Positions 1-10,386 of a stretch of DNA of 64,000 nt are shown here, piece by piece (position 1 is the stretch's first letter; each line of letters opens with the position of its first letter). Position numbers and translations under genes: made by a program. Under the pieces are notes generated by a model. It saw nothing but the letters and a program-made list of their open reading frames with translations. It ran no database searches and was not told the origin of the DNA. This DNA comes from Streptomyces sp. NBC_01231. GTDB taxonomy: Bacteria > Actinomycetota > Actinomycetes > Streptomycetales > Streptomycetaceae. The stretch is taken from assembly GCA_035999765.1 (NCBI GenBank), contig CP108521.1:6262001-6326000 (forward strand). The letters run 5' to 3'.

Positions 1-217
1 CCACCGAAGCGATGATGCTGACTGCGGCCAGGTTAAGAGTCAAGAAAAACGAATTGGTGAGACCCCTTCGGGCACTTATCCGGTCAGCCATCTCGACGCA
101 CAGCTTGTACTGCTCAAGAATCAGCTGGCTCTGCAGATTTGCGTTGTCGAAATTCTCATCTCGGATCACGCTGCCGTTCCACACCGCGCCATGCAGTTCG
201 CGTGATATCTCAGACAT
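1..217 (-). CDS. Small membrane protein, N-terminal part (SLATT/RipA-like, cut by the window edge)
   Basis: Partial gene; about 72 residues are visible and the rest lies beyond the left edge. The protein starts MSEISRELHGAVWNG; the stretch ILEQYKLCVEMADRISARR is followed by a hydrophobic segment (FFLTLNLAAVSIIAS), the look of small two-helix membrane proteins (SLATT/RipA-like) that accompany defence ATPases. The ATG at 215-217 follows a good ribosome site (AGGGGG). It starts 37 bases after the stop of the upstream ATPase gene, on the same strand and behind the same style of ribosome site, so the two probably form an operon. A membrane effector role is inference; the family call rests on a short stretch and recall. 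Base composition is AT-rich like the ATPase. Confidence 0.6.
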   Translation of the reverse strand, partial: MSEISRELHGAVWNGSVIRDENFDNANLQSQLILEQYKLCVEMADRISARRGLTNSFFLTLNLAAVSIIASV

Positions 218-254
218 GATCCCCCTAAAGAATTGATATTTAGCCCCGTCGATC

Positions 255-2633
255 CTACAGGGAGTCACCCTCGATTTCGAGGAAGTCGCGGAACGCAGGA
301 TGAAACTCATACCGCTCTTCTTTTTTAAGGCGTCGCGACGTATTCCGGGCCAAGATTTTCGCCTTCCTTAGATCATCTGCCCGATCGGGGTAGGCGAAAC
401 TCCCCTTGCGAACCTCTATCCCCAGGAAGGAGATCTTTAGTAGCCCCTCAAGGCATTGCGCAGCCAAATCCCTGTCAGTGAAACCAGGAGATGATTGGAT
501 TATTTCCAGAATCTCCGACTTCGACATGGTGGACGTGCAGCCAGCGAATTCATAGACCACGTCTTCCAGATTACTCATGGTCGACCCGTACTCAACGAGC
601 AATGCATCGAGGGCGAACTTACTGTAGCTTTTCTTTGCCTCTCCGATGTCAGATTCCTCGACTGTCAGGTGCCGAGCATTTGCCGCACTGAACACGGCTG
701 CCTTGCAGAAAAAGACCAAGTCTCGGGGGCGATGGAGGATAGTCGACAAGATGTAGTCTAGTGTTGGCTCGCCGTCGACGCTGGAACAGAAATACTGCTG
801 CCACAGCTCATCTGGCGAGGTTCCCTTGGGACGGACGGAGAGATACCGTTCGTCCATCACGCGCTTCAGCAGTTCCGGCTGATTCCAATCGATTCTCTTC
901 GTGTTGATTTTGTCTGGTTCGCGAGCCTCCTTGATGACTTCGTCGTATATGTCTGACCTCAAGAAGACGCTGATGGTTACGTTGACTGAACGCAGCTTGT
1001 TATTCTCTCGCTGGAACTCCTCGGTAATTCTACTTACCGTGCTCAACAGGCCCACCAGCAAGACCGCTTGCGACTTAAGTTGAGCGGATTTCGTCCAGGC
1101 GCTGTCGAGATTATCAACCAGCAGCGCTACGCGATGACGGTCACGCAGTGCTTCCCCGAGCAGTTTGCGGAGGTTTCCTACGATGTTGCCGTGAAGTGCT
1201 TGGGCGATCCGCTCGCGCTGCTGTTCGATTGTCCGGGCGGCTCCCTTCAGGTCCCGACTTACGGACTCAATGACTCGCTCTAGCCGGACTGAGAATTCCT
1301 CCGCGATGTCGTTTTGTGCCAGGTAGTCGCGAAGTCTTGCCAACGGCGTGCCATTTCCGATACCGGCAGGCAACCTGTCAGCGGCAGCGACAGTCTCAAG
1401 AGAGATCTCGGAGTAGAGCAGGAACCGCCAGAAGCTCTCCACCAGAAATGATTGATTTCCGTCTCCTCCAAGAGACTGTAAAACACTCACGAGGCCGTCA
1501 AGATCATAGTTAGTTGGTCGGACGACGCAGACCAAGTTGCGCTTATCGTCTCGGAGTACCTGAGACGCCCGAATCATGTTCGCCGATTTTCCCATACCTT
1601 TGCGGCCGACGAATACCACACTGCTCTCGTTCAACACCGCCTCATATTCCGCCGTTTCGACGAAATATTCATCAAGGGTGTCGGACTCGTTTTCCGCGAC
1701 GTAATCGCCGAATTTTAGGTCCTTTAGTTCTGTGGCAAGTTCGACCTTTGGTGCCGGATTCGAATCTCCGGTATCCTCGTGGTTCCAGGCACGGAAGGCT
1801 TGTTCGCGCCATTGCCCCAACTTCTCCGCGAGCTTTTTCTTGTTGTGGTAGGTGTACAGGATGTCCTTGTAATCAACCGGTCCGCGGTAGTCGGGCTCGA
1901 CAACCACCAGCAAAGGCCGCTCAAGGCCCCTCGCGAGCCCGGCGATGAACGCGCTCCGAGCGTTATGCAATCGATTCCGGTCGTGCTGTTCGCCTGACAT
2001 TTGAAGGAGTGTGGCAGCAGAGGAATAGACGGCGTTAACATGCCAGGCGAGTGGGGCTGATCCCTGCTCCGCTGGATCAGCGATCGTCACCTTTGTGCCC
2101 AAGTCTCGTTCCTTCCCTATCATCCTCCGGAGATTACGTTCGGATTCGGAGGTGTGATAAGTGGGCACGTAAAAAATCGAGTTTTTTACGGTCCTATCTA
2201 GGGCTTGAGATGCGTCATCCCACAGAGTCCTCTCACTTGCCGCATTGATACCTGTCATGAACTTTGCAGCAAGTTCGCTTCCGGTTTCGTAGAAGATGCA
2301 TCCGATTGTCGAGAAAATGTCGAATGCCCGCCAGTCGCGCATCGCCTCGGGGGATCTGCAAACGGATAGAACGATGTGCTTGCGCTGGCTGAAGGCGTAG
2401 CCCACTTCGAACAGAACGTTCTCGCTTAGTGTGGTGACGTCGAAGAGGCAGATAGTGCTGTCATCAATATCTTTTAGTACCGTCTCAATGATGATTCTGC
2501 CAGTAGCTGGATTCGACTCCCATGTTTTCGCCTCGGCGAAACCGCTTTTGTTTATTACGGCCACTGCCTGCTGGATCTCCTGCGAGACGTCGGCGGGGTT
2601 TTTCGAGTAACCGAGAAAAACCTTGTAATCCAT
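255..2633 (-). CDS. P-loop ATPase with N-terminal TIR/deoxyribosyltransferase-like domain (Sll1717-like), putative defence protein
   Basis: Protein of 792 residues. Residues 1-100 look like the TIR-like/nucleoside deoxyribosyltransferase fold: MDYKVFLGYSKNP at the start and DVTTLSENVLFEVGYAFSQ with the conserved Glu-x-Gly-Tyr-Ala. A Walker A motif GRKGMGKSA lies at about 343-351 and an Asp-rich Walker B-like strand ALLVDNLDSAW near 505-515. This two-part build resembles the Sll1717-type ATPases seen near defence genes. The start at 2633 is chosen because AGGGGG lies just upstream; a longer TTG reading from 2687 has no ribosome site. It is followed by a small membrane protein gene 37 bases away. 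The DNA is far less GC-rich than the rest of the window and uses many A/T-ending codons, so transfer is likely. Function in immunity is inference. Confidence 0.75.
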   Translation of the reverse strand: MDYKVFLGYSKNPADVSQEIQQAVAVINKSGFAEAKTWESNPATGRIIIETVLKDIDDSTICLFDVTTLSENVLFEVGYAFSQRKHIVLSVCRSPEAMRDWRAFDIFSTIGCIFYETGSELAAKFMTGINAASERTLWDDASQALDRTVKNSIFYVPTYHTSESERNLRRMIGKERDLGTKVTIADPAEQGSAPLAWHVNAVYSSAATLLQMSGEQHDRNRLHNARSAFIAGLARGLERPLLVVVEPDYRGPVDYKDILYTYHNKKKLAEKLGQWREQAFRAWNHEDTGDSNPAPKVELATELKDLKFGDYVAENESDTLDEYFVETAEYEAVLNESSVVFVGRKGMGKSANMIRASQVLRDDKRNLVCVVRPTNYDLDGLVSVLQSLGGDGNQSFLVESFWRFLLYSEISLETVAAADRLPAGIGNGTPLARLRDYLAQNDIAEEFSVRLERVIESVSRDLKGAARTIEQQRERIAQALHGNIVGNLRKLLGEALRDRHRVALLVDNLDSAWTKSAQLKSQAVLLVGLLSTVSRITEEFQRENNKLRSVNVTISVFLRSDIYDEVIKEAREPDKINTKRIDWNQPELLKRVMDERYLSVRPKGTSPDELWQQYFCSSVDGEPTLDYILSTILHRPRDLVFFCKAAVFSAANARHLTVEESDIGEAKKSYSKFALDALLVEYGSTMSNLEDVVYEFAGCTSTMSKSEILEIIQSSPGFTDRDLAAQCLEGLLKISFLGIEVRKGSFAYPDRADDLRKAKILARNTSRRLKKEERYEFHPAFRDFLEIEGDSL

Positions 2634-3061
2634 ATTTCCCCCTGGTGTTTCAACGGCGGGGTCACCAATGCTCGGTTGCTGAACCAAGGATGCACTTGGT
2701 CAGGAGTGCGCCCGCCCCTTCCGCGCCTCATTCGCTTGATTTTAGGCATTGATCAGTTGGTTGGGGAGGCTTCTGGCAGATTCGGCTGAACCTGAACGTC
2801 CCAAGGGCGGTGGAGTGGGTTTGGTCATGAGCGGCACGGGCGCCGGGCGGGCTGGAGCGGGGCGGAGACGGGAGCGCAGGCCCGGCCGGCGCCCGTGCCT
2901 CGCGCGGGGAGCGGAGCGAGCCGCCTTGAACCAGTAGAGAAAGTTGTAACTCAGTCGGCAGCGCTCTGTCCTGTCTCGGTTGATGGTTGACACTGCGGCT
3001 TCACCTGATGCTTGACGCCGCTTGCCTCGGATTGGCTGTGCGTGCAGGGAGGGCCGGGGCC
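2634..3061. other. Junction between AT-rich island and high-GC DNA, no gene seen
   Basis: No convincing gene. On the minus strand a TAAAAT box (2739-2744) could be the -10 of the ATPase promoter, but I see no matching -35. From about 2800 the composition becomes typical for Streptomyces. A long inverted repeat lies at 2833-2899 and is listed separately. Confidence 0.5.
2833..2899. repeat. Perfect 14-bp inverted repeat (long hairpin)
   Basis: GGCACGGGCGCCGG at 2833-2846 is repeated in inverted form at 2886-2899, separated by 39 G-rich bases. It sits where the AT-rich island gives way to high-GC sequence, upstream of the ATPase. It may be a terminator, or a structured end of a mobile element; the sequence alone does not decide. 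Confidence 0.6.
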
Positions 3062-3411
3062 GTGCTGGTGGAGCTGAGCGTGGTCGAGCAGCGGTAGCCC
3101 GCGGTGATGGAGGTCGCCGCGGGGGTTCCGGTCACCCAAGTCGCCGCCCGGTATGGGGTGTCGAGCAGTCGGTGTATTCCTGTGTGCGCAAGTACGAGCA
3201 GTCGGGTCTGCCAGGGCTGGCGGACCGGTCGCATCGGCCGGCCTCGTGTCCGCACCGGATCGCCGGATAGGTGGAGGCGGCGGTGTGTGAGCTGCGGCGT
3301 CGGCATCCGAGTTGGGGGCCGCGTCGGTTGGTGCACGAGCTGGCGCGTCGGGGGTTGGTGCCGGTGCCGTCCCGGGCCACGGTCTACCGGGTATTGCTCC
3401 GTACCAATTCG
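3062..3411 (+). pseudogene. Remnant of an IS481-type transposase, N-terminal part only
   Basis: Pieces of a transposase N-terminus read in order but in broken frames: VLVELSVVEQR then TAG (3095-3097), MEVAAGVPVTQVAARYGVS, a frameshift near 3160, SVYSCVRKYEQSGLPGLADR, a second TAG (3268-3270), then VEAAVCELRRRHPSWGPRRL and ATVYRVLLRTN. The order helix-turn-helix, linker, 'HPSWGPRRL' region is that of IS481-family and related DDE transposases. The catalytic DDE domain is absent. Two stops, a frameshift and the truncation make it a dead copy, a sign of past mobile-element activity next to the tRNA scar. Confidence 0.7.
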
Positions 3412-3524
3412 CAGATCGACTCGGAGCCATGGCCCGGGGCGGTGGGGGAGTGGCCTCAGGATGCCCGGCTGAGGACGCCGAGCGGACGTAGCGGCACGCA
3501 TGTGGCAAGGCGCCTGAAACGGCG

Positions 3525-3566
3525 AAGGGCCAGCCCGGGAGGAAACCCCTCCTGAGGTGGCCCTTA
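3525..3566 (-). terminator. Hairpin terminator downstream of the tRNA-Arg fragment
   Basis: AAGGGCCA (3525-3532) pairs with TGGCCCTT (3558-3565), with an inner GGGAGG/CCCCTCC stem. It begins a few bases past the 3' end of the tRNA-Arg fragment on the same strand, so it may be the original terminator of that tRNA gene. Confidence 0.6.
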
Positions 3567-3572
3567 GTTATG

Positions 3573-3614
3573 TGCCCCCAGCGGGATTCGAACCTGCGAC
3601 ACCCGCTTTAGGAG
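3573..3614 (-). tRNA. 3' part of tRNA-Arg(CCU), probable attachment-site scar
   Basis: Reading the minus strand, the segment runs from the anticodon loop (CTCCTAA, anticodon CCT) through the T arm (GCAGG TTCGAAT CCCGC) to the acceptor strand TGGGGGC plus discriminator A. The 5' half is missing: the bases before the anticodon loop cannot pair with AGCGG, and no D arm or 5' acceptor is found. The T stem has one A-C mismatch, suggesting drift. tRNA-specific integrases usually recombine from the anticodon loop to the 3' end, so this is best read as a duplicated att core and not a working tRNA. Confidence 0.75.
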
Positions 3615-4111
3615 TTCGATCCGAGCACGGCCCAGCAGGGTCCCCCGGGCCGATCGAAGCGTACGTGCCCAGCCGCGCGCGGGTGCCTACGTCCGGCGCC
3701 GTTGATGTCACCTGTGGAAGTCAGCCGGAGCTAGCGCTTCTTGCGGATCCTGCGCTTCTTCTCCTTGGCTTCCTTCTCCTGGCGTTGCGCCACACCGTAC
3801 GCAGACCACGGTCCCTGGTGGACTGGACACCGGGAGGTGCCAGTGACTACCTTCCGCTGACATCGCCCGCCTGACTTGGTCGGCGCACCACACTTGGCCA
3901 CGCTGCTTCCCCCTCTGGTCTCGACACGCAGTACGTGGAGCTCTAGGAACCGTGTCTCGGCTGCCGCCAGCAGGGAAGGCGCGTGCCGGATCGTTTGGGT
4001 GCACGCGGGCGCACATCGACGCCATCAGCTTGGGAAGCTGCGTCCGTTCAGGAGGAGTCGTACGGGTGACCTGGTCGAACGCTCGGTGGGTGGGCTCGGC
4101 AGGCCCGTCGT
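3615..4111. other. Intergenic stretch beside the tRNA scar, possible element remnant
   Basis: No confident gene. On the minus strand an ATG at 3863 opens a 51-codon frame (MSAEGSHWHLPVSSPP, then VVCVRCGA with a lone CxxC). In a neighbouring frame the same DNA reads KEAKEKKRRIRKKR to a stop at 3731, with Streptomyces-like codons. This could be a frameshifted small gene of a former element. A longer minus-strand frame across 3708-4403 overlaps the NlpC/P60 gene and is not supported. Confidence 0.35.
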
Positions 4112-5182
4112 TCACCCCACCCGCGTACCCCCCGCGAACGGCATCTGGTCGATCGGGGCCAGGCGTACCGGTGCTGAGGGGTTCGGTGCGTGGATCATTT
4201 GGCCGTTGCCCACGTACAGGCCGACGTGGCTGATGCCGGAGTAGAAGAACACCAGGTCGCCCGGGAGCAGTTCGGAGCGGGAGACGCGTTGGCCGGCGCC
4301 GATCTGGGCGTAGGTCGTGCGCGGGAGGGACACGCCCGCGGAGCGGTACGCGGCGAGGGTGAGGCCCGAGCAGTCGAAGGCGGCCGGGCCGGTCGCGCCC
4401 CACACGTAGGGGCTGCCCAGCTTGGAGTAGGCGAAGGAGACGGCGGCCGCCGCACGGGAGTTGGGTGCGTCGGAGGTGGCCGTCCCGGTCGCTGCCAGGT
4501 GGTCCCGCGCGGTGCCGGTGGACCGTGCGGCGCGGGCCGTGTCGCGGCCGCCCTCCCCGTACCGGGCTCGTTCCTCGGCGGGCAGCCCGGACAGCAGCCG
4601 TCGGGCCGTGTCCAGCTTCCCGTTGACCGTCTCCTTGTGCCGCATCAGCTCCGCCTGCCGGGACTTCAGCGAGGTCAGCTCGATGCGCGCGGCCCCGCGT
4701 AACCGCTCGATCTCCCGCAGCTGTCCGCGGACGTTCGCGACGGACGTGGCCTGCCGGCTGCCGGCCCGCTCGACGAACTCGGCCCCGTCCAGGTACTGGT
4801 CGGGATCGTCGGACAGCGCGAGTTGCAGCGCGGGATCAAGGCCGCCGTCGCGGTACTGCGCCCTGGCCATCGAACCCAGCGAGTCCCGCGCCGAGTTGAG
4901 CTTCTCCGTCCGGCGGGCCGCTTCGTCCCGCAGCGTGGAGAGGCGCTGCTGTGCGGTGTCCGCCTTCTCCTTCGCGCCGTTGTACTTTTCGGTGGCGACC
5001 TCCGCCTCCTGGTACAGCCTGTCCACCTTCGCCTTGACCTGCGCCGGTGTCAGCTGGGGCTCGGCGTGTCCGGTCCCGTCGAAACCCGTCGCCGTCGCCG
5101 CGCCCGCGAGGGCGATCGTCGCCGCCGCGCGGGCCGTGTTGCCGCTGACCGAGCGTTGCCGGGGCTTGCGGTGCGCTGCCAA
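4112..5182 (-). CDS. Secreted NlpC/P60 (C40) peptidoglycan hydrolase
   Basis: Protein of 356 residues. It probably starts at the TTG at 5182 (LAAHRKPRQR), matching its paralogue at 6136-7320. An N-terminal signal region precedes a long coiled coil (about 50-220), and the C-terminal NlpC/P60 domain carries the Cys of FDCSGL (about 271), the His of SHVGLYV (about 319) and a second His in MIHAPNP (about 331). This family cleaves D-glutamyl-diaminopimelate bonds in peptide stems. No c-di-AMP riboswitch was recognised upstream, unlike the paralogue. AGGA lies 12 bases before the TTG, a rather long spacing, so the start is less certain. Confidence 0.88.
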   Translation of the reverse strand: MAAHRKPRQRSVSGNTARAAATIALAGAATATGFDGTGHAEPQLTPAQVKAKVDRLYQEAEVATEKYNGAKEKADTAQQRLSTLRDEAARRTEKLNSARDSLGSMARAQYRDGGLDPALQLALSDDPDQYLDGAEFVERAGSRQATSVANVRGQLREIERLRGAARIELTSLKSRQAELMRHKETVNGKLDTARRLLSGLPAEERARYGEGGRDTARAARSTGTARDHLAATGTATSDAPNSRAAAAVSFAYSKLGSPYVWGATGPAAFDCSGLTLAAYRSAGVSLPRTTYAQIGAGQRVSRSELLPGDLVFFYSGISHVGLYVGNGQMIHAPNPSAPVRLAPIDQMPFAGGTRVG

Positions 5183-5649
5183 CTGGACTGCACGTCCTTT
5201 CGTACGACCGCCTGATCCGTACGAACGCCAAGCGGAGCGGACGTACGGCCGCCCCGGGGGGCGGATGACGCGTCCGGCGGCGCCCCGCACAGGGGGAGCG
5301 GACCGCCGCCGGACCTTCTCGGCGGTGGTGGCCGACTGCCGCCCCTGGCCCGGGCGGCGGTGGGGAATCGGTCACCTGGTGAAGGACGCTAAACCCGACT
5401 GTGACGGCTCGGTAACGGGATGTACGGAAGTGCCGCGAGAGGACCGGCTGGTGACCGTATGTGACCCTGATTCGACTTCGGTGCCGTCGTCTTCACACAG
5501 AGCGATGACCGAGGTGGGGAATGCGCGACCCGGGGTGTTCGCCAGGTGCTATGGCCGCATATATGCAAGATCCGATCCGGTGCGGAGGGCCGGAATGCGG
5601 GGAGGGCCGGTGTCAGGTGCCGCCCGCACCCTGATTAGGCTCCGGCCTC
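5183..5649. promoter_or_regulatory. Divergent intergenic region with GTGAC/GTAAC direct repeats
   Basis: No gene seen. The region separates the NlpC/P60 gene from a plus-strand membrane protein. GTGACG (5401) and GTAACG (5412) lie 11 bases apart, and two GTGACC copies (5451, 5461) lie 10 bases apart. Such helical-phase repeats resemble sites for OmpR-type response regulators; MtrA, which controls cell-wall genes in actinobacteria, is a candidate. The assignment is inference. Confidence 0.35.
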
Positions 5650-6003
5650 ATGGACGTACTCATCCATTTCTTCGTCGGCCTGCACATCATCGGCATCGCC
5701 TCGCTGCTCGGCGGCTTCCTCACCCAGATGAAGGCGATGGGCCAGGGCACCGCCCGCTTCGTCCCGGCGATGCTGCACGGTGCCCTGACCATGCTGGTCA
5801 CCGGCGCGATCCTGGTCGGCCTGAACCAGGCCGACGACCAGCCCGTCAACAACATCAAGATCGGTGTGAAGCTGGCCCTGCTGATCGTGATCCTCGGCCT
5901 CGTCTATGTGAAGCGGGACGACGAGCGGGTGGACAAGAGCATGTTCGGCGTGGTGGGTGCGCTGACCACGGCGAACATCTTCATCGCGGTGCTGTGGACG
6001 TGA
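5650..6003 (+). CDS. Small integral membrane protein of unknown function
   Basis: Protein of 117 residues with four predicted membrane helices: about 1-25 (FFVGLHIIGIASLLGGFL), 38-60, 70-88 (KLALLIVILGLVYV) and 98-116. A short polar loop (NQADDQPVNNIKIG) separates helices two and three. No catalytic motif is visible. The start is ATG at 5650 with only a weak ribosome site. It is transcribed alone and is followed by a strong hairpin at 6036-6067. Its position between two cell-wall hydrolase genes hints at an envelope role, which is inference only. Confidence 0.75.
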   Translation: MDVLIHFFVGLHIIGIASLLGGFLTQMKAMGQGTARFVPAMLHGALTMLVTGAILVGLNQADDQPVNNIKIGVKLALLIVILGLVYVKRDDERVDKSMFGVVGALTTANIFIAVLWT

Positions 6004-6035
6004 TCTCCGGACGGTCGGCGGCGTAGGCCGACAGG

Positions 6036-6067
6036 GCCGCGCCCGCGGCACAACGCGCGGGCGCGGC
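6036..6067. terminator. Bidirectional terminator between convergent genes
   Basis: A perfect 11-bp stem, GCCGCGCCCGC (6036-6046) against GCGGGCGCGGC (6057-6067), lies between the convergent membrane protein gene and the riboswitch-controlled NlpC/P60 gene. Confidence 0.7.
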
Positions 6068-6135
6068 ACAAGAAGGCCAGCCCCCGGTCCGGAGGCGGCG
6101 GCGGACCGACGCCGCCCGCCTCCGGGCGGGAACGG

Positions 6136-7320
6136 TCAGGCCGGTCGTACCACGCTGTAGATCGACGACTCGCCGTCGTAGTAGATCGATTCCTCGCGGA
6201 CGTACGCGCCCGGCTTCGGAGCGTGGATCATCATGCCGTTGCCGATGTACATGCCGACGTGGCTGATGTCGTCGTAGAAGAACACCAGGTCACCGGGCTG
6301 GGCGGCGGAGAGGGAGACCGTGGTGCCGGCGTTGACCTGGTCGTAGGTGACGCGCGGGATGTCGACGCCGGCGGCCTTCCAGGCGGCCTGGGTGAGGCCG
6401 GAGCAGTCGTAGGAGTCGGGGCCGGTGGCGCCCCAGACGTACGGCTTGCCGATCTGGGCGCGGGCGAAGGCGAGCGCCTTCTCGGCCTTGGTGGCGTACG
6501 AGGCGTCGGGCGCGTCGGACGAGGTGCCGGTCGAGGTGCCGGTCGAGGGCGAGGAGCCCGTCGAGGAGCCGCTGTCCTGCTGCTGAGCCGCCGCCTCCTG
6601 GGCTTGCTGCTCCGCCGCCTGCTGTTGCTGCGCCAGCTCGGCGGCCCTGCGCTTCGCCTCCTCCTGCTTCTTCTCCTCGATCGCGGCGAGCCGCGCCTTC
6701 TCCTCGGCGGTCAGCTGCGACAGCATGCCGCGGGCGTCGGCGAGTTTCTTCTGGACGGTCGCCTTGGCCGTCTTCAGGTCGCCCTGCGACTCGGTGAGCG
6801 TCTGAAGGCTCTCGGTGGCCTCCTTGCGCTTCTCCATCGTCGCGGACTGCTCGGTGACGTACTCGTCGACCGCGCCCTTCTGCCTGTTGGTCAGCCGACC
6901 CATCAGCTGGGTCTGGTCGAAGTAGTCCTGCGGGGAGTCCGCGAGCAGGAAGGTCGCGGTGTCGGGTGCGGAGGCACCGGTGCGGTACTGGGCTGCGGCG
7001 AAGGAACCCAGCTCCTCCCGCGCCTCGTTGAGCTTCTGGGTGCGCTGGGCGACGTCTTCGAGGAGAGTGTCGACTTGTTTGCGCTGCTTCCCGGTCTTCT
7101 CCTTGGCCGCGTTGTACTTGTCGGTCGCCGACTCCGCCTGGCGGTACAGGTCGTCGACCTTCTGTTCGACCTCTTCGAGGCTGGGTTTGTCGTCGGCGGG
7201 GACGGCCTGCGCCGATTGGGACAGCAGGGCGACCGAGGTGAGGGCCGCCGTGGCGAGGGCGGGGGTCCGTATGCCTGCTACGCGCGTACCAGCGGGACGC
7301 GACTTGCGGTGCGACGCCAA
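6136..7320 (-). CDS. Secreted NlpC/P60 (C40) peptidoglycan hydrolase under a c-di-AMP riboswitch
   Basis: Protein of 394 residues starting at TTG 7318-7320 (LASHRKSRPAGTRVAG). The ribosome site GGAAGGAG lies nine bases upstream, so the longer ATG reading from 7551 is rejected; it would also run through the riboswitch. A signal segment (ALATAALTSVALLSQSAQA) is followed by a long coiled coil, a Gln/Ala-rich stretch, a Ser/Thr/Gly linker and the NlpC/P60 domain: Cys in YDCSGL (about 306), His in SHVGMYI (about 354) and His in MIHAPKP (about 366). It is an exported peptidoglycan peptidase. The leader RNA ties its expression to c-di-AMP. Confidence 0.92.
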   Translation of the reverse strand: MASHRKSRPAGTRVAGIRTPALATAALTSVALLSQSAQAVPADDKPSLEEVEQKVDDLYRQAESATDKYNAAKEKTGKQRKQVDTLLEDVAQRTQKLNEAREELGSFAAAQYRTGASAPDTATFLLADSPQDYFDQTQLMGRLTNRQKGAVDEYVTEQSATMEKRKEATESLQTLTESQGDLKTAKATVQKKLADARGMLSQLTAEEKARLAAIEEKKQEEAKRRAAELAQQQQAAEQQAQEAAAQQQDSGSSTGSSPSTGTSTGTSSDAPDASYATKAEKALAFARAQIGKPYVWGATGPDSYDCSGLTQAAWKAAGVDIPRVTYDQVNAGTTVSLSAAQPGDLVFFYDDISHVGMYIGNGMMIHAPKPGAYVREESIYYDGESSIYSVVRPA

Positions 7321-7342
7321 GGGAGGCGACTCCTTCCACGTT

Positions 7343-7487
7343 CCGCCTACCGAGTTAGCTGTCGGGTTCGGGCGGGAGATGCGGAAGGGTTGCCCTACGG
7401 CCTTGTCCCAGGGGGAGTTGGGCCGATTCACCCCAAGTTCGGTGGGTCCCCGGTTCCATTCGCGCGGCGGCGCTGCGGATTCGGCGG
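7343..7487 (-). promoter_or_regulatory. ydaO/yuaA-type cyclic di-AMP riboswitch
   Basis: On the minus strand the leader contains the conserved ydaO-class blocks in order: CGCCGAATCCGC, GGAACCGGGGACCCA, TTGGGGTGAATCGG, GGACAAGGCCGTAGGGCA and CCGAACCCGACAGCTAACTC, ending about 23 bases before the TTG of the hydrolase gene. This class binds c-di-AMP, usually turns expression off, and in actinobacteria typically precedes NlpC/P60 and Rpf cell-wall enzymes. The downstream gene fits exactly. Confidence 0.93.
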
Positions 7488-7867
7488 AGGCCGCGCGGCC
7501 CGGCGGGGTTCGCCGGTGGGGGTCGTACGGCCTGTCCGGCACGGTAGCCAACTCGTGTGGCCGCTGTGAAGGTTGATGTTCGATATGCCCGATACATTTT
7601 TGTGACCTTCAGTCAGGGCGTGGCTGACCGTAGTTGGTTCATGGTGATTTTCTTTGATCTGTACTGACTCGTTCTGTTTCGTGAGGTCGGTGATGTCCGC
7701 CCGTTTCGGTCGGCCCGGACGGCAAGGTCCACGCCCTTGCCTGTTCCGTCGCGGACCGTGATGGCGCCATCTCGAAGGGTGAGTGAGGCCGGGCGGACGG
7801 TTCCGGAAGGCCCTCGGGGTCTGGGCCCGCCGCCGGATTCCGGCGATGTTCTCGGGGTGGCGGCGGG
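7488..7867. other. Intergenic region between the riboswitch and pcrA
   Basis: About 380 bases with no convincing gene on either strand. The part around 7560-7660 is AT-richer (GATATGCCCGATACATTTTT) and may hold the minus-strand promoter of the riboswitch transcript. A TGAAGGT/ACCTTCA inverted pair flanks this patch. Confidence 0.4.
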
Positions 7868-7890
7868 CTGTCAGTGGGGGGTCCTAGACT
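7868..7890 (+). promoter_or_regulatory. Putative RecA-independent (PafBC-type) DNA-damage promoter of pcrA
   Basis: CTGTCAGTG (7868-7876), exactly eight bases, then TAGACT (7885-7890). This fits the actinobacterial damage promoter tTGTCRgtg-N8-TAnnnT except for the first T. The -10 ends 9 bases before the pcrA ATG, so the mRNA would have almost no leader. Confidence 0.7.
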
Positions 7891-7899
7891 CGGAGTGCG

Positions 7900-10386
7900 A
7901 TGAGCAGCCTCTTTGATGACAGCTTCCTGGCGAACCTCCAGGCCCCTCGCGGGCACGAGGAGGGACCCCCGCCGCCACCCGAGGACGAGCACGGACCGGA
8001 GCCCGTTCCGGACGATCTGTTCGGCGGGAAGTTCGACGTGCCGCCGGACCGGGACACCCACTACCGCGACGGCGCCCCGCGCCCGGCGGTGGACCCGGCC
8101 GCGCTCCTGGAGGGGCTGAACGAGAACCAGCGCGAGGCCGTCGTGCACGCCGGTGCCCCGCTGCTCATCGTGGCCGGCGCCGGTTCGGGCAAGACCCGTG
8201 TGCTCACGCACCGCATCGCCTACCTGCTCGGCGAGCGGAACGTGCATCCGGGCCAGATCCTCGCGATCACCTTCACCAACAAGGCCGCCGGCGAGATGAA
8301 GGAGCGCGTCGAGCAGCTCGTCGGCCCGCGCGCGAACGCGATGTGGGTGATGACCTTCCACAGCGCGTGCGTCCGCATCCTGCGCCGGGAGTCGAAGAAG
8401 CTGGGCTTCACCTCCTCCTTCTCGATCTACGACGCCGCCGACTCCAAGCGTCTGATGGCCCTGGTCTGCCGCGACCTGGACCTTGACCCCAAGCGCTTCC
8501 CACCGAAGTCCTTCAGCGCCAAGATCTCGAACCTGAAGAACGAGCTGATCGACGAGGAGGACTTCGCCGCCCAGGCCACCGACGGCTTCGAGAAGACCCT
8601 CGCCCAGGCCTACGCCATGTACCAGTCGCGGCTGCGCGAGGCGAACGCCCTCGACTTCGACGACCTGATCATGACGACGGTCAACCTGCTCCGCGCCTTC
8701 CCGGACGTCGCCGACCACTACCGCCGCCGCTTCCGGCACGTCCTCGTCGACGAGTACCAGGACACCAACCACGCCCAGTACTCCCTGGTCCGGGAGCTCG
8801 TCGGCACCTCCGAGCACCCGGTGGACGTACCGCCCAGCGAGTACGACCTCCAGCCCGCCGAACTGTGCGTGGTGGGTGACGCCGACCAGTCGATCTACGC
8901 GTTCCGCGGCGCGACCATCCGCAACATCCTCCAGTTCGAGGAGGACTACCCGGACGCGACGACGATCCTGCTGGAGCAGAACTACCGCTCGACGCAGACG
9001 ATCCTCACCGCCGCCAACGCGGTCATCGAGCGCAACGAGTCCCGCCGTCCCAAGAACCTGTGGACCAACGCGGGCGCGGGCGCGCGCATCACCGGCTATG
9101 TCGCCGACACCGAGCACGACGAGGCGCAGTTCGTCGCCGACGAGATAGACCGCCTCACGGACGCGGGCGAGGCGAAGGCCGGCGATGTCGCCGTTTTCTA
9201 CCGGACGAACGCCCAGTCCCGTGTCTTCGAAGAGATCTTCATCCGTGTCGGCCTGCCCTACAAGGTCGTCGGCGGTGTCCGCTTCTACGAGCGCAAGGAG
9301 GTCCGGGACGTCCTGGCCTACCTGCGGGTCCTCGCCAACCCGGAGGACTCGGTACCGCTGCGGCGGGTCCTGAACGTGCCCAAGCGCGGCATCGGCGAGC
9401 GCGCCGAGGCGATGATCGACGCACTGTCCCAGCGGGAGAAGATCAGCTTCCCGCAGGCGCTGAAGCGGGTCGACGAGGCGTACGGCATGGCCGCGCGCTC
9501 CACGAACGCCGTGAAGCGGTTCAACACGCTGATGGAGGACCTCCGTACCGTCGTCGACTCCGGAGCGGGCCCGGCGACCGTCCTGGAGGCGGTACTCGAA
9601 CGCACCGGCTACCTCGCCGAGTTGCAGGCCTCCACCGACCCCCAGGACGAGACCCGGGTCGAGAACCTTCAGGAACTCGCCGCCGTCGCCCTGGAGTTCG
9701 AACAGGAGACCGCGGAGGGGGAGGCGTCCGGTTCGCTCTCCGACTTCCTGGAGCGGGTGGCCCTGGTCGCCGACTCCGACCAGATCCCCGACGAGGAAGA
9801 GGACGGCTCCGGAGTCATCACCCTGATGACCCTGCACACCGCCAAGGGCCTGGAATTCCCGGTCGTGTTCCTGACCGGCATGGAGGACGGCGTCTTCCCG
9901 CACATGCGCGCCCTCGGCCAGACCAAGGAACTGGAGGAGGAACGCCGCCTGGCGTACGTCGGCATCACCCGCGCGCGGGAACGGCTGTATCTGACACGGT
10001 CGTCGCTGCGGAGCGCGTGGGGGCAGCCGTCGTACAACCCGCCCTCCCGTTTCCTGGAGGAGATCCCGCCGCAGCACGTCGACTGGAAGCGGACCGGCGC
10101 CACGTCACCGGTGTCCTCCGGCCCGGTGTCCGGGGTGGCGGCCTCGCTGTCGTCGTCCCGCTCCCGCTCGTCGGCGTCCGGGGCGTCCGGCTTCGCCACC
10201 CGCCGGAGCTCGGAGAAGCCCGTGGTGGCGCTGGCGGTCGGGGACCGGGTCACCCACGACCAGTTCGGGCTCGGAACGGTCGTGGCCGTGAAGGGCACCG
10301 GTGGCAACGCCGAGGCGACGGTCGACTTCGGGGAAGAGAAGCCGAAGCGACTGCTGCTGCGCTACGCGCCGGTGGAGAAGCTGTAG
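7900..10386 (+). CDS. pcrA: ATP-dependent DNA helicase PcrA/UvrD, superfamily 1
   Basis: Protein of 828 residues; an SF1A 3'-5' helicase acting in excision repair, replication restart and clearing of RecA filaments. A disordered acidic/Pro-rich N-terminus (about 1-60) precedes the Q motif GLNENQREAV, Walker A GAGSGKT (93-99), Walker B VDEYQDTN (about 283), GDADQSIYAFRGA, QNYRSTQ, and the late motifs TLHTAKGLEFPVVF and YVGITRARERL. The C-terminal tail ends in the small Tudor-like fold VGDRVTHDQFGLGTVV of PcrA/UvrD. Length is normal for actinobacteria. It stands alone, convergent with the M23 gene, behind a damage-type promoter and close to leaderless. Confidence 0.97.
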   Translation: MSSLFDDSFLANLQAPRGHEEGPPPPPEDEHGPEPVPDDLFGGKFDVPPDRDTHYRDGAPRPAVDPAALLEGLNENQREAVVHAGAPLLIVAGAGSGKTRVLTHRIAYLLGERNVHPGQILAITFTNKAAGEMKERVEQLVGPRANAMWVMTFHSACVRILRRESKKLGFTSSFSIYDAADSKRLMALVCRDLDLDPKRFPPKSFSAKISNLKNELIDEEDFAAQATDGFEKTLAQAYAMYQSRLREANALDFDDLIMTTVNLLRAFPDVADHYRRRFRHVLVDEYQDTNHAQYSLVRELVGTSEHPVDVPPSEYDLQPAELCVVGDADQSIYAFRGATIRNILQFEEDYPDATTILLEQNYRSTQTILTAANAVIERNESRRPKNLWTNAGAGARITGYVADTEHDEAQFVADEIDRLTDAGEAKAGDVAVFYRTNAQSRVFEEIFIRVGLPYKVVGGVRFYERKEVRDVLAYLRVLANPEDSVPLRRVLNVPKRGIGERAEAMIDALSQREKISFPQALKRVDEAYGMAARSTNAVKRFNTLMEDLRTVVDSGAGPATVLEAVLERTGYLAELQASTDPQDETRVENLQELAAVALEFEQETAEGEASGSLSDFLERVALVADSDQIPDEEEDGSGVITLMTLHTAKGLEFPVVFLTGMEDGVFPHMRALGQTKELEEERRLAYVGITRARERLYLTRSSLRSAWGQPSYNPPSRFLEEIPPQHVDWKRTGATSPVSSGPVSGVAASLSSSRSRSSASGASGFATRRSSEKPVVALAVGDRVTHDQFGLGTVVAVKGTGGNAEATVDFGEEKPKRLLLRYAPVEKL

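Follow-up and report, generated by a model that had tools for sequence, protein, structure and literature searches.

A window of 64,000 nucleotides (G000:C1:6262001-6326000, the whole stretch analysed here) from the 11.34-Mb, single-contig genome of Streptomyces sp. NBC_01231 opens with two neighbouring genes, one encoding a P-loop ATPase with a TIR/NDT-like N-terminus and the other a small membrane protein of the 8xMP (RipA) family. We find this pair to be a real, recurring and mobile TIR/NDT-STAND plus 8xMP unit; most probably it serves in defence, as a cassette of abortive-infection type, a kind that is known in general. An initial annotation of the same DNA had interpreted the two genes as a defence-like unit, an interpretation that our analysis supports.

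Both genes lie on the minus strand. The ATPase gene runs from an ATG at position 2633 to a stop codon at 255-257 and encodes 792 amino acids. The 8xMP gene, 37 bases past it, starts with an ATG at 217 and encodes 174 amino acids; 72 of its 174 codons are inside the window and its end lies 308 bases outside (L002 15693-16217 in our locus numbering). The ribosome site AGGGGG precedes the start of each gene. Strand, spacing and ribosome sites thus confirm the two-gene arrangement initially described. The G+C content is about 0.525-0.563 at positions 1-3000, as compared to 0.667-0.774 in the remaining 1-kb steps of the window, which agrees with the AT-rich setting reported earlier.

The C-terminal half of the larger protein is covered by the NCBIfam model NF047389 (P-loop ATPase Sll1717 family), the whole of which aligns with residues 308-785 at 313 bits (cut-off 75). 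At E 1e-5, with the 8000 best candidates scored, 171 proteins including our own are related to the ATPase; alignments A1 and A4 combine the window protein with 64 of the best 120 of these 171 matches and with 64 of 69 locus pieces, respectively. The P-loop, VGRKGMGKS, occupies residues 342-350, and both the Walker A Lys349 and the Walker B Asp507 are present in all rows with a letter at these positions (80/80 each). Together with the NLR/ORC-like fold of the predicted structure, these motifs identify a STAND-like ATPase and bear out the P-loop core recognised in the initial annotation. A sequence search of solved structures with the full ATPase returned nothing usable.

The N-terminus is an NDT/TIR-type Rossmannoid domain with a catalytic-type glutamate. 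Its LFEVGYA motif, already taken as TIR/NDT-like in the initial annotation, corresponds to residues 74-80, and Glu76 is invariant in the 75 aligned rows that have a letter there (75/75; gap in 6/81). The profile alignment places Glu76 opposite the DNPH1 glutamate, and PF05014 is matched by 48/65 members of the ATPase family at E 0.001. The fold was checked with Foldseek, in which the N-terminal model gave domain-sized matches to DNPH1, BcmB and NDT with a root-mean-square deviation (rmsd) of 3.6-5; both the fold and the catalytic Glu of the NDT/TIR superfamily are found here. The top ranks of that search (periplasmic binding proteins and RPP1) were set aside owing to poor superpositions (rmsd >20). 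In the full-length VIA list RPP1 has an rmsd of 21.5 because the match spans several domains.

The identity of the membrane protein, earlier called RipA-like, is equally clear. PF24838 (8xMP, RipA family octameric membrane protein) aligns over nearly the whole model with residues 34-171 (127.9 bits, cut-off 30, E 3.1e-37), and relatives carry the NCBI name 'RipA family'. There are 1017 related proteins, our own included, at E 1e-5, and alignment A2 combines the window protein with 44 of the best 120 of them. Hydrophobic peaks are located at residues 56-74, 82-100 and 156-174. As for the SLATT family, no SLATT model appears among the Pfam families listed for 8xMP at E up to 1, while hhalign points to a faint likeness with SLATT_1 (probability 13%, P 0.0021), the positive control, a diverged 8xMP set, reaching 100%; a SLATT_4 search gave no matches anywhere and was uninformative. 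Sequence searches of solved structures with 8xMP, singly and as a profile, yielded nothing usable, and in the open-licence literature we found no paper on 8xMP and no stated immune role for it.

The adjacency of the two genes recurs. Among 80 related ATPase loci, drawn from genomes of many phyla, 8xMP adjoins the ATPase or sits one gene off in six, in three arrangements: downstream on the same strand (L003, L011, L062), upstream on the same strand (L007, and L008 with one 97-aa frame in between) and convergent (L009). A further convergent pair, with the genes 43 bases apart, is found on a plasmid of the cyanobacterium Leptolyngbya. A broader 8xMP profile (E up to 10) returned the same six of the 80 loci and added none; the small membrane proteins next to the ATPase in L012 and L022, considered as distant 8xMPs, do not match this profile either. 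In 392 Streptomyces genomes, our own included, eight match the ATPase profile at 1e-30, two of them at full length, and 8xMP adjoins the ATPase in both, 8xMP itself being present in 67/392. The second of these genomes (G237) and the S. brasiliensis genome of L003 are probably the same. On a tree of 72 rows, 7 of them paired (FastTree only, with long-branch warnings; rows shorter than 700 aa, L062 among them, were dropped), the pairing requires five changes, four of which are forced by well supported (starred) branches. We found no description of the ATPase plus 8xMP pairing in open-licence papers.

The unit also appears to move as a whole. Comparison of the window with S. brasiliensis by blastn gave three pieces over ~3.5 kb that include the pair, the main one 76.6% alike and the last ending at L002 15274, and no further match between the compared flanks; likeness limited to this stretch points to a cassette. 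A shared insertion site in S. brasiliensis was considered and rejected, since the compared flanks do not match. Using tblastn with the ATPase we obtained 216 plasmid records, 13 of them with at least 80% coverage, and two phage records covering 52% of the query; in IMG/VR the ATPase occurs at 12 viral/proviral loci, 8 of them near full length. By name, 99 of the 216 plasmid records are Klebsiella and 61 Escherichia; one E. coli plasmid row among the matches listed covers residues 297-781 only, that is the ATPase half.

The surroundings of ATPase relatives were scanned with 106 of 286 neighbouring proteins (>=150 aa, within 3 kb); 107 had been picked by distance, of which a long L027 protein was omitted. 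The commonest PADLOC families, among the best 25 of 156, are type IIG methylase-nucleases (7/106 by best model) and DrmMI (6/106); in Pfam, among the best 25 of 146, they are related methylase domains (5/106), ResIII (4/106) and 8xMP (4/106, the window's included), all these counts standing without a matched control. Two other features of these surroundings were observed. On a Rhodococcus plasmid (L162 6915-14393) an ATPase relative, annotated as two pieces, has a TIR protein on one side and a DUF4062 protein on the other. Moreover, a cluster of mostly convergent frames (up to 1152 aa) is common to 10 ATPase loci, several of them from Poribacteria (L035, L036, L039, L042, L054, L058, L065, L072, L076 and L082).

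Elsewhere, 8xMP genes often neighbour TIR/NDT/SLOG-like genes, and 8xMP therefore seems to be a membrane partner that TIR-class enzymes use interchangeably, in the manner of TIR+SLATT and TM-macro Thoeris. From the 67 Streptomyces genomes with 8xMP we took 40 loci together with broad flanks; selection went mostly by score rather than at random. Of these, 36, several being close relatives, yielded a usable gene table, unlike L137 and L158-L160. By our own count, 30 of the 36 have at least one TIR/NDT/SLOG-like gene or window-type ATPase within two genes of 8xMP. In 14 loci the partner is a SLOG-like protein of ~165 aa (family c1), and in 12 it is a membrane protein whose C-terminal half resembles TIR and which has an invariant Trp-Glu (c2). 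A protein combining an NDT-like part with S1 (c4) is present in 4 loci and a ThsB-type TIR (c10) in 3; the other partners are TIR_2 (L121, L133), CAP12-TIR (L135), NDT (L157) and the window-type ATPase (L150).

These labels are of unequal strength. Pfam finds ThsB_TIR in L155 at 1.7e-15 (the other two c10 loci are named by likeness to L155), CAP12-TIR in L135 at 4.8e-26, and TIR_2 in L133 at 1.6e-20 and in L121 at 9.1e-7; the NDT match in L157, at 7.7e-5, is under the curated cut-off. Families c1, c2 and c4 are named by motif: c1 by a motif reading and a weak DprA match (E 0.26; no Pfam match in the one member scanned), c2 by its invariant Trp-Glu and reading by eye (no Pfam match in the two members scanned and no solved relative), and c4 by a motif seen by eye, the two members scanned (L151, L156) giving S1 domains only in Pfam. 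The count becomes 25/36 without c2, 22/36 without c2 and c4, and 8/36 without c1, c2 and c4 (L121, L133, L135, L150, L153-L155 and L157). As for the uncounted loci, nothing is seen by eye in L126 and L152, c2 stands three genes off in L139 and L148, and frames in L134 and L147 are TIR-like by eye only.

The C-terminal domain of the c2 family (L123 3152-4414, L128 5009-6022, L139-L141, L143-L146 and others) has invariant LxLRxF..D and WE, and such membrane proteins are often close to both 8xMP and the SLOG-like gene. In L129, L142, L151 and L156 the product of the gene directly upstream of 8xMP begins with an NDT-like part, recognised by eye from a MELGWAMCLHKQ-type motif, and continues with S1 domains.

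Co-localisation was then measured with 58 8xMPs from 50 genomes of the 67, the other 17 having mostly weak matches; two short fragments by listed SLOG-like matches were also left aside. Matches to the SLOG-like profile (A5) lie within 3 kb of 8xMP in 20/68 cases against about 0.06 expected, 11 of the 20 being rows of the search profile and 9 not. For CAP12-TIR the figure is 4/8 against about 0.007 expected, and three of these four cases (G246, G136 and G118, ~2.5 kb off) look like one related locus. Overall, 21/58 8xMPs have a SLOG-like or CAP12-TIR match within 3 kb, and 48/68 SLOG-like and 4/8 CAP12-TIR matches are away from 8xMP; a TIR_2 search of the 50 genomes produced numerous matches, which were not counted. 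Five 8xMP loci lie on viral/proviral contigs, and in three of them (L181, L182 and L183) the gene directly before 8xMP matches PADLOC ThsB models (8.3e-7, 2.2e-6 and 4e-4, respectively), a possible minimal TIR+8xMP system. Finally, at G038:C1:5995333-5996221, 43 bases separate a match to the SLOG-like family from one to SLATT_1, a hint that the two membrane families, 8xMP and SLATT, can fill one and the same role; TIR_2 matches follow at a distance of 3-6 kb.

Several known systems resemble the pair in part. In TM-macro ThsA Thoeris, the active site of a ThsB subfamily resembles deoxynucleotide enzymes (PMC11204291), and the window pair likewise has a TIR enzyme with such an active site next to a putative membrane effector. 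By contrast with Thoeris, no macro or SIR2-SLOG domain was found in the pair, the TIR-like part forms a single protein with a STAND-like ATPase, and the two proteins match no PADLOC ThsA or ThsB model. Phage TIR genes stand beside 2TM SLATT proteins, predicted to control membrane permeability (PMC9503650); here, too, a small membrane protein is next to a TIR gene, but the membrane family is 8xMP. The joining of a TIR-class enzyme to a STAND-like ATPase is shared with TIR-NLR/STAND proteins (RPP1, CED-4, NRC4) and with DUF4062-NACHT proteins (TEP1; PMC13174449). The window protein differs from these in its tandem Rossmannoid N-terminus; in the predicted structure it ends in a small mixed region with no C-terminal repeat sensor evident, repeats not having been specifically searched; DUF4062 is absent among the Pfam families listed for it at E up to 1 in a general Pfam scan. 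As for the Sll1717 family, NF047389 spans the ATPase half only, to which the window protein adds the N-terminal NDT/TIR pair; the model gives no function, and a full-text literature search for Sll1717 found no paper.

The domain make-up, the invariant active-site residues, the recurring adjacency, the cassette-like mobility and the TIR/NDT/SLOG-like neighbours of 8xMP, all of them computed, are consistent with a mobile two-gene cassette of abortive-infection type in which a nucleotide-cleaving enzyme acts with a membrane-perturbing 8xMP; in this full form we judge the proposal to have about an even chance. A trigger and oligomerisation would set the enzyme to work, and Glu76 would cleave the glycosidic bond of a nucleotide, the substrate being NAD+ or a (deoxy)nucleotide. 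The cleavage product as a signal, or else direct contact, would activate 8xMP. Presumably oligomeric and crossing the membrane with two or three helices, 8xMP would then disturb the membrane and arrest the cell, so that killing at the membrane would serve an anti-phage function.

Several observations weigh against this proposal. No PADLOC family matches the ATPase (E up to 1) or 8xMP (E up to 10), in keeping with the earlier remark that the pairing is not known as a named system. The window N-terminus scores 15.7 and 18.2 bits with PF10137 (CAP12-PCTIR_TIR; cut-off 24.7) and 16 and 18.1 bits with PF05014 (Nuc_deoxyrib_tr; cut-off 28.8), all below threshold. In our own reading of the alignment, D80 of DNPH1 falls opposite Val52, so the substrate need not equal that of DNPH1, and no ligand-binding domain is evident in 8xMP. 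Within the DNA examined, which for some of the loci is a short contig, no 8xMP was found in 74/80 ATPase loci; therefore the ATPase can probably act without it. Finally, only 4/500 shuffles of the pairing label on the tree were as low as five changes, indicating that the pairing is clustered and thus partly inherited, and change counts on this tree cannot separate its gain from its loss.

A broader version, to which we give somewhat less than an even chance, makes 8xMP a membrane effector of general use in TIR-class signalling, one that can be swapped between ThsB-type and Cap12-type TIRs, SLOG-like sensors, NDT-like enzymes and TIR-like membrane proteins; the window pair would be its STAND-controlled branch, in which the nucleotide signal of the tandem NDT-TIR enzyme would open an octameric pore. 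The loci without 8xMP favour a different explanation, namely that the ATPase defends alone: as a TIR/NDT-STAND enzyme encoded by one gene, it would deplete NAD+ or nucleotides unaided, with 8xMP as an optional accessory, a membrane anchor or a brake rather than the killer. Swarozyc, whose TIR-like, NDT-related domain is an NADase, needs only one expressed protein for defence (PMC13174449), and the validated E. coli systems named in PMC13092281 include the P-loop protein DS-41, a distant relative; the relation is to its P-loop region, at 48.6 bits, far under the cut-off of 370 of NF053860, which we equate with DS-41 from the names. On the other hand, the 8xMP pairing has arisen or vanished more than once and takes several forms, and a passive passenger would not explain why 8xMP repeatedly neighbours other TIR/NDT-type genes; we consider this explanation unlikely.

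The partner diversity fits equally well an 8xMP acting upstream, as a membrane sensor or scaffold that detects a membrane event and switches on the TIR/NDT enzyme as the effector, one membrane module serving several enzyme types. However, the ATPase already has a STAND-like switch and lacks 8xMP in most loci, and the small size of 8xMP would leave little room for specific recognition, so that we find this arrangement quite improbable. Least probable of all is a regulatory or stress pair with no immune role, which would agree with our noticing no other defence gene by eye in the frames of L002 8000-16300 and window 1-9000 (no PADLOC scan) but not with the patchy distribution of the full-length ATPase in Streptomyces, the mobility shared with S. 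brasiliensis, the plasmid and viral/proviral copies or the restriction genes near ATPase relatives.

Beyond the pair, the initial annotation had placed an integration scar nearby. Positions 3572-3622 (minus strand) do resemble the 3′ part of a tRNA by eye, and to this extent the claim stands; no tRNA is called there, and the 51-mer is single-copy in the genome with up to 3 mismatches allowed, so that a second copy serving as attachment-site partner is rejected over this length. Two relatives of a 37-base core of the stretch, one differing at 2 positions and the other at 3, are located at 4.50-4.51 Mb. At about 3022-3501 there is a transposase-like reading frame, broken across several frames, which we take to be IS481-like. 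The coordinates of the features are collected below.

Table. Features of the ATPase/8xMP pair in the window, and TIR/8xMP gene pairs at other loci
Feature	Position	Strand	Method
792-aa NDT/TIR-like + STAND-like P-loop ATPase (Sll1717 family)	255..2633	-	
Domain 1, residues 1-138, NDT/DNPH1/TIR-like Rossmannoid	2220..2633	-	
Glu76 codon within NVLFEVGYA; counterpart of DNPH1 Glu by profile alignment	2406..2408	-	
Domain 2, residues 146-290, second Rossmannoid, TIR/flavodoxin-like, without the Glu of Domain 1	1764..2198	-	
STAND/ORC-Cdc6-like ATPase region, residues 300-792	258..1736	-	
Walker A GRKGMGKS (Lys349)	1584..1607	-	
5′ part of the 174-aa 8xMP (RipA-family) gene; runs 308 bases past the window start	1..217	-	
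AGGGGG ribosome site, ATPase gene	2638..2643	-	
AGGGGG ribosome site, 8xMP gene	221..226	-	
In-window share of the ~3.5-kb stretch common to S. brasiliensis	1..2824	.	blastn
ThsB-type TIR gene + 8xMP, viral/proviral contigs	L181 4558-5465, L182 3789-4727, L183 4597-5543		

For 8xMP/RipA, a family so far only a name to us, there is now a function that can be tested. Since one small protein adjoins enzymes of several TIR/NDT/SLOG types, combining it with a number of partners in a single toxicity or pore assay could tell whether signal and effector are shared. The NDT-TIR-STAND protein, in turn, would tie chemistry of the nucleoside-N-glycosidase type to NLR-type switching. If 8xMP is indeed a swappable effector, the pair would represent a class akin to Thoeris in which the effector family, and perhaps also the signal, is new.

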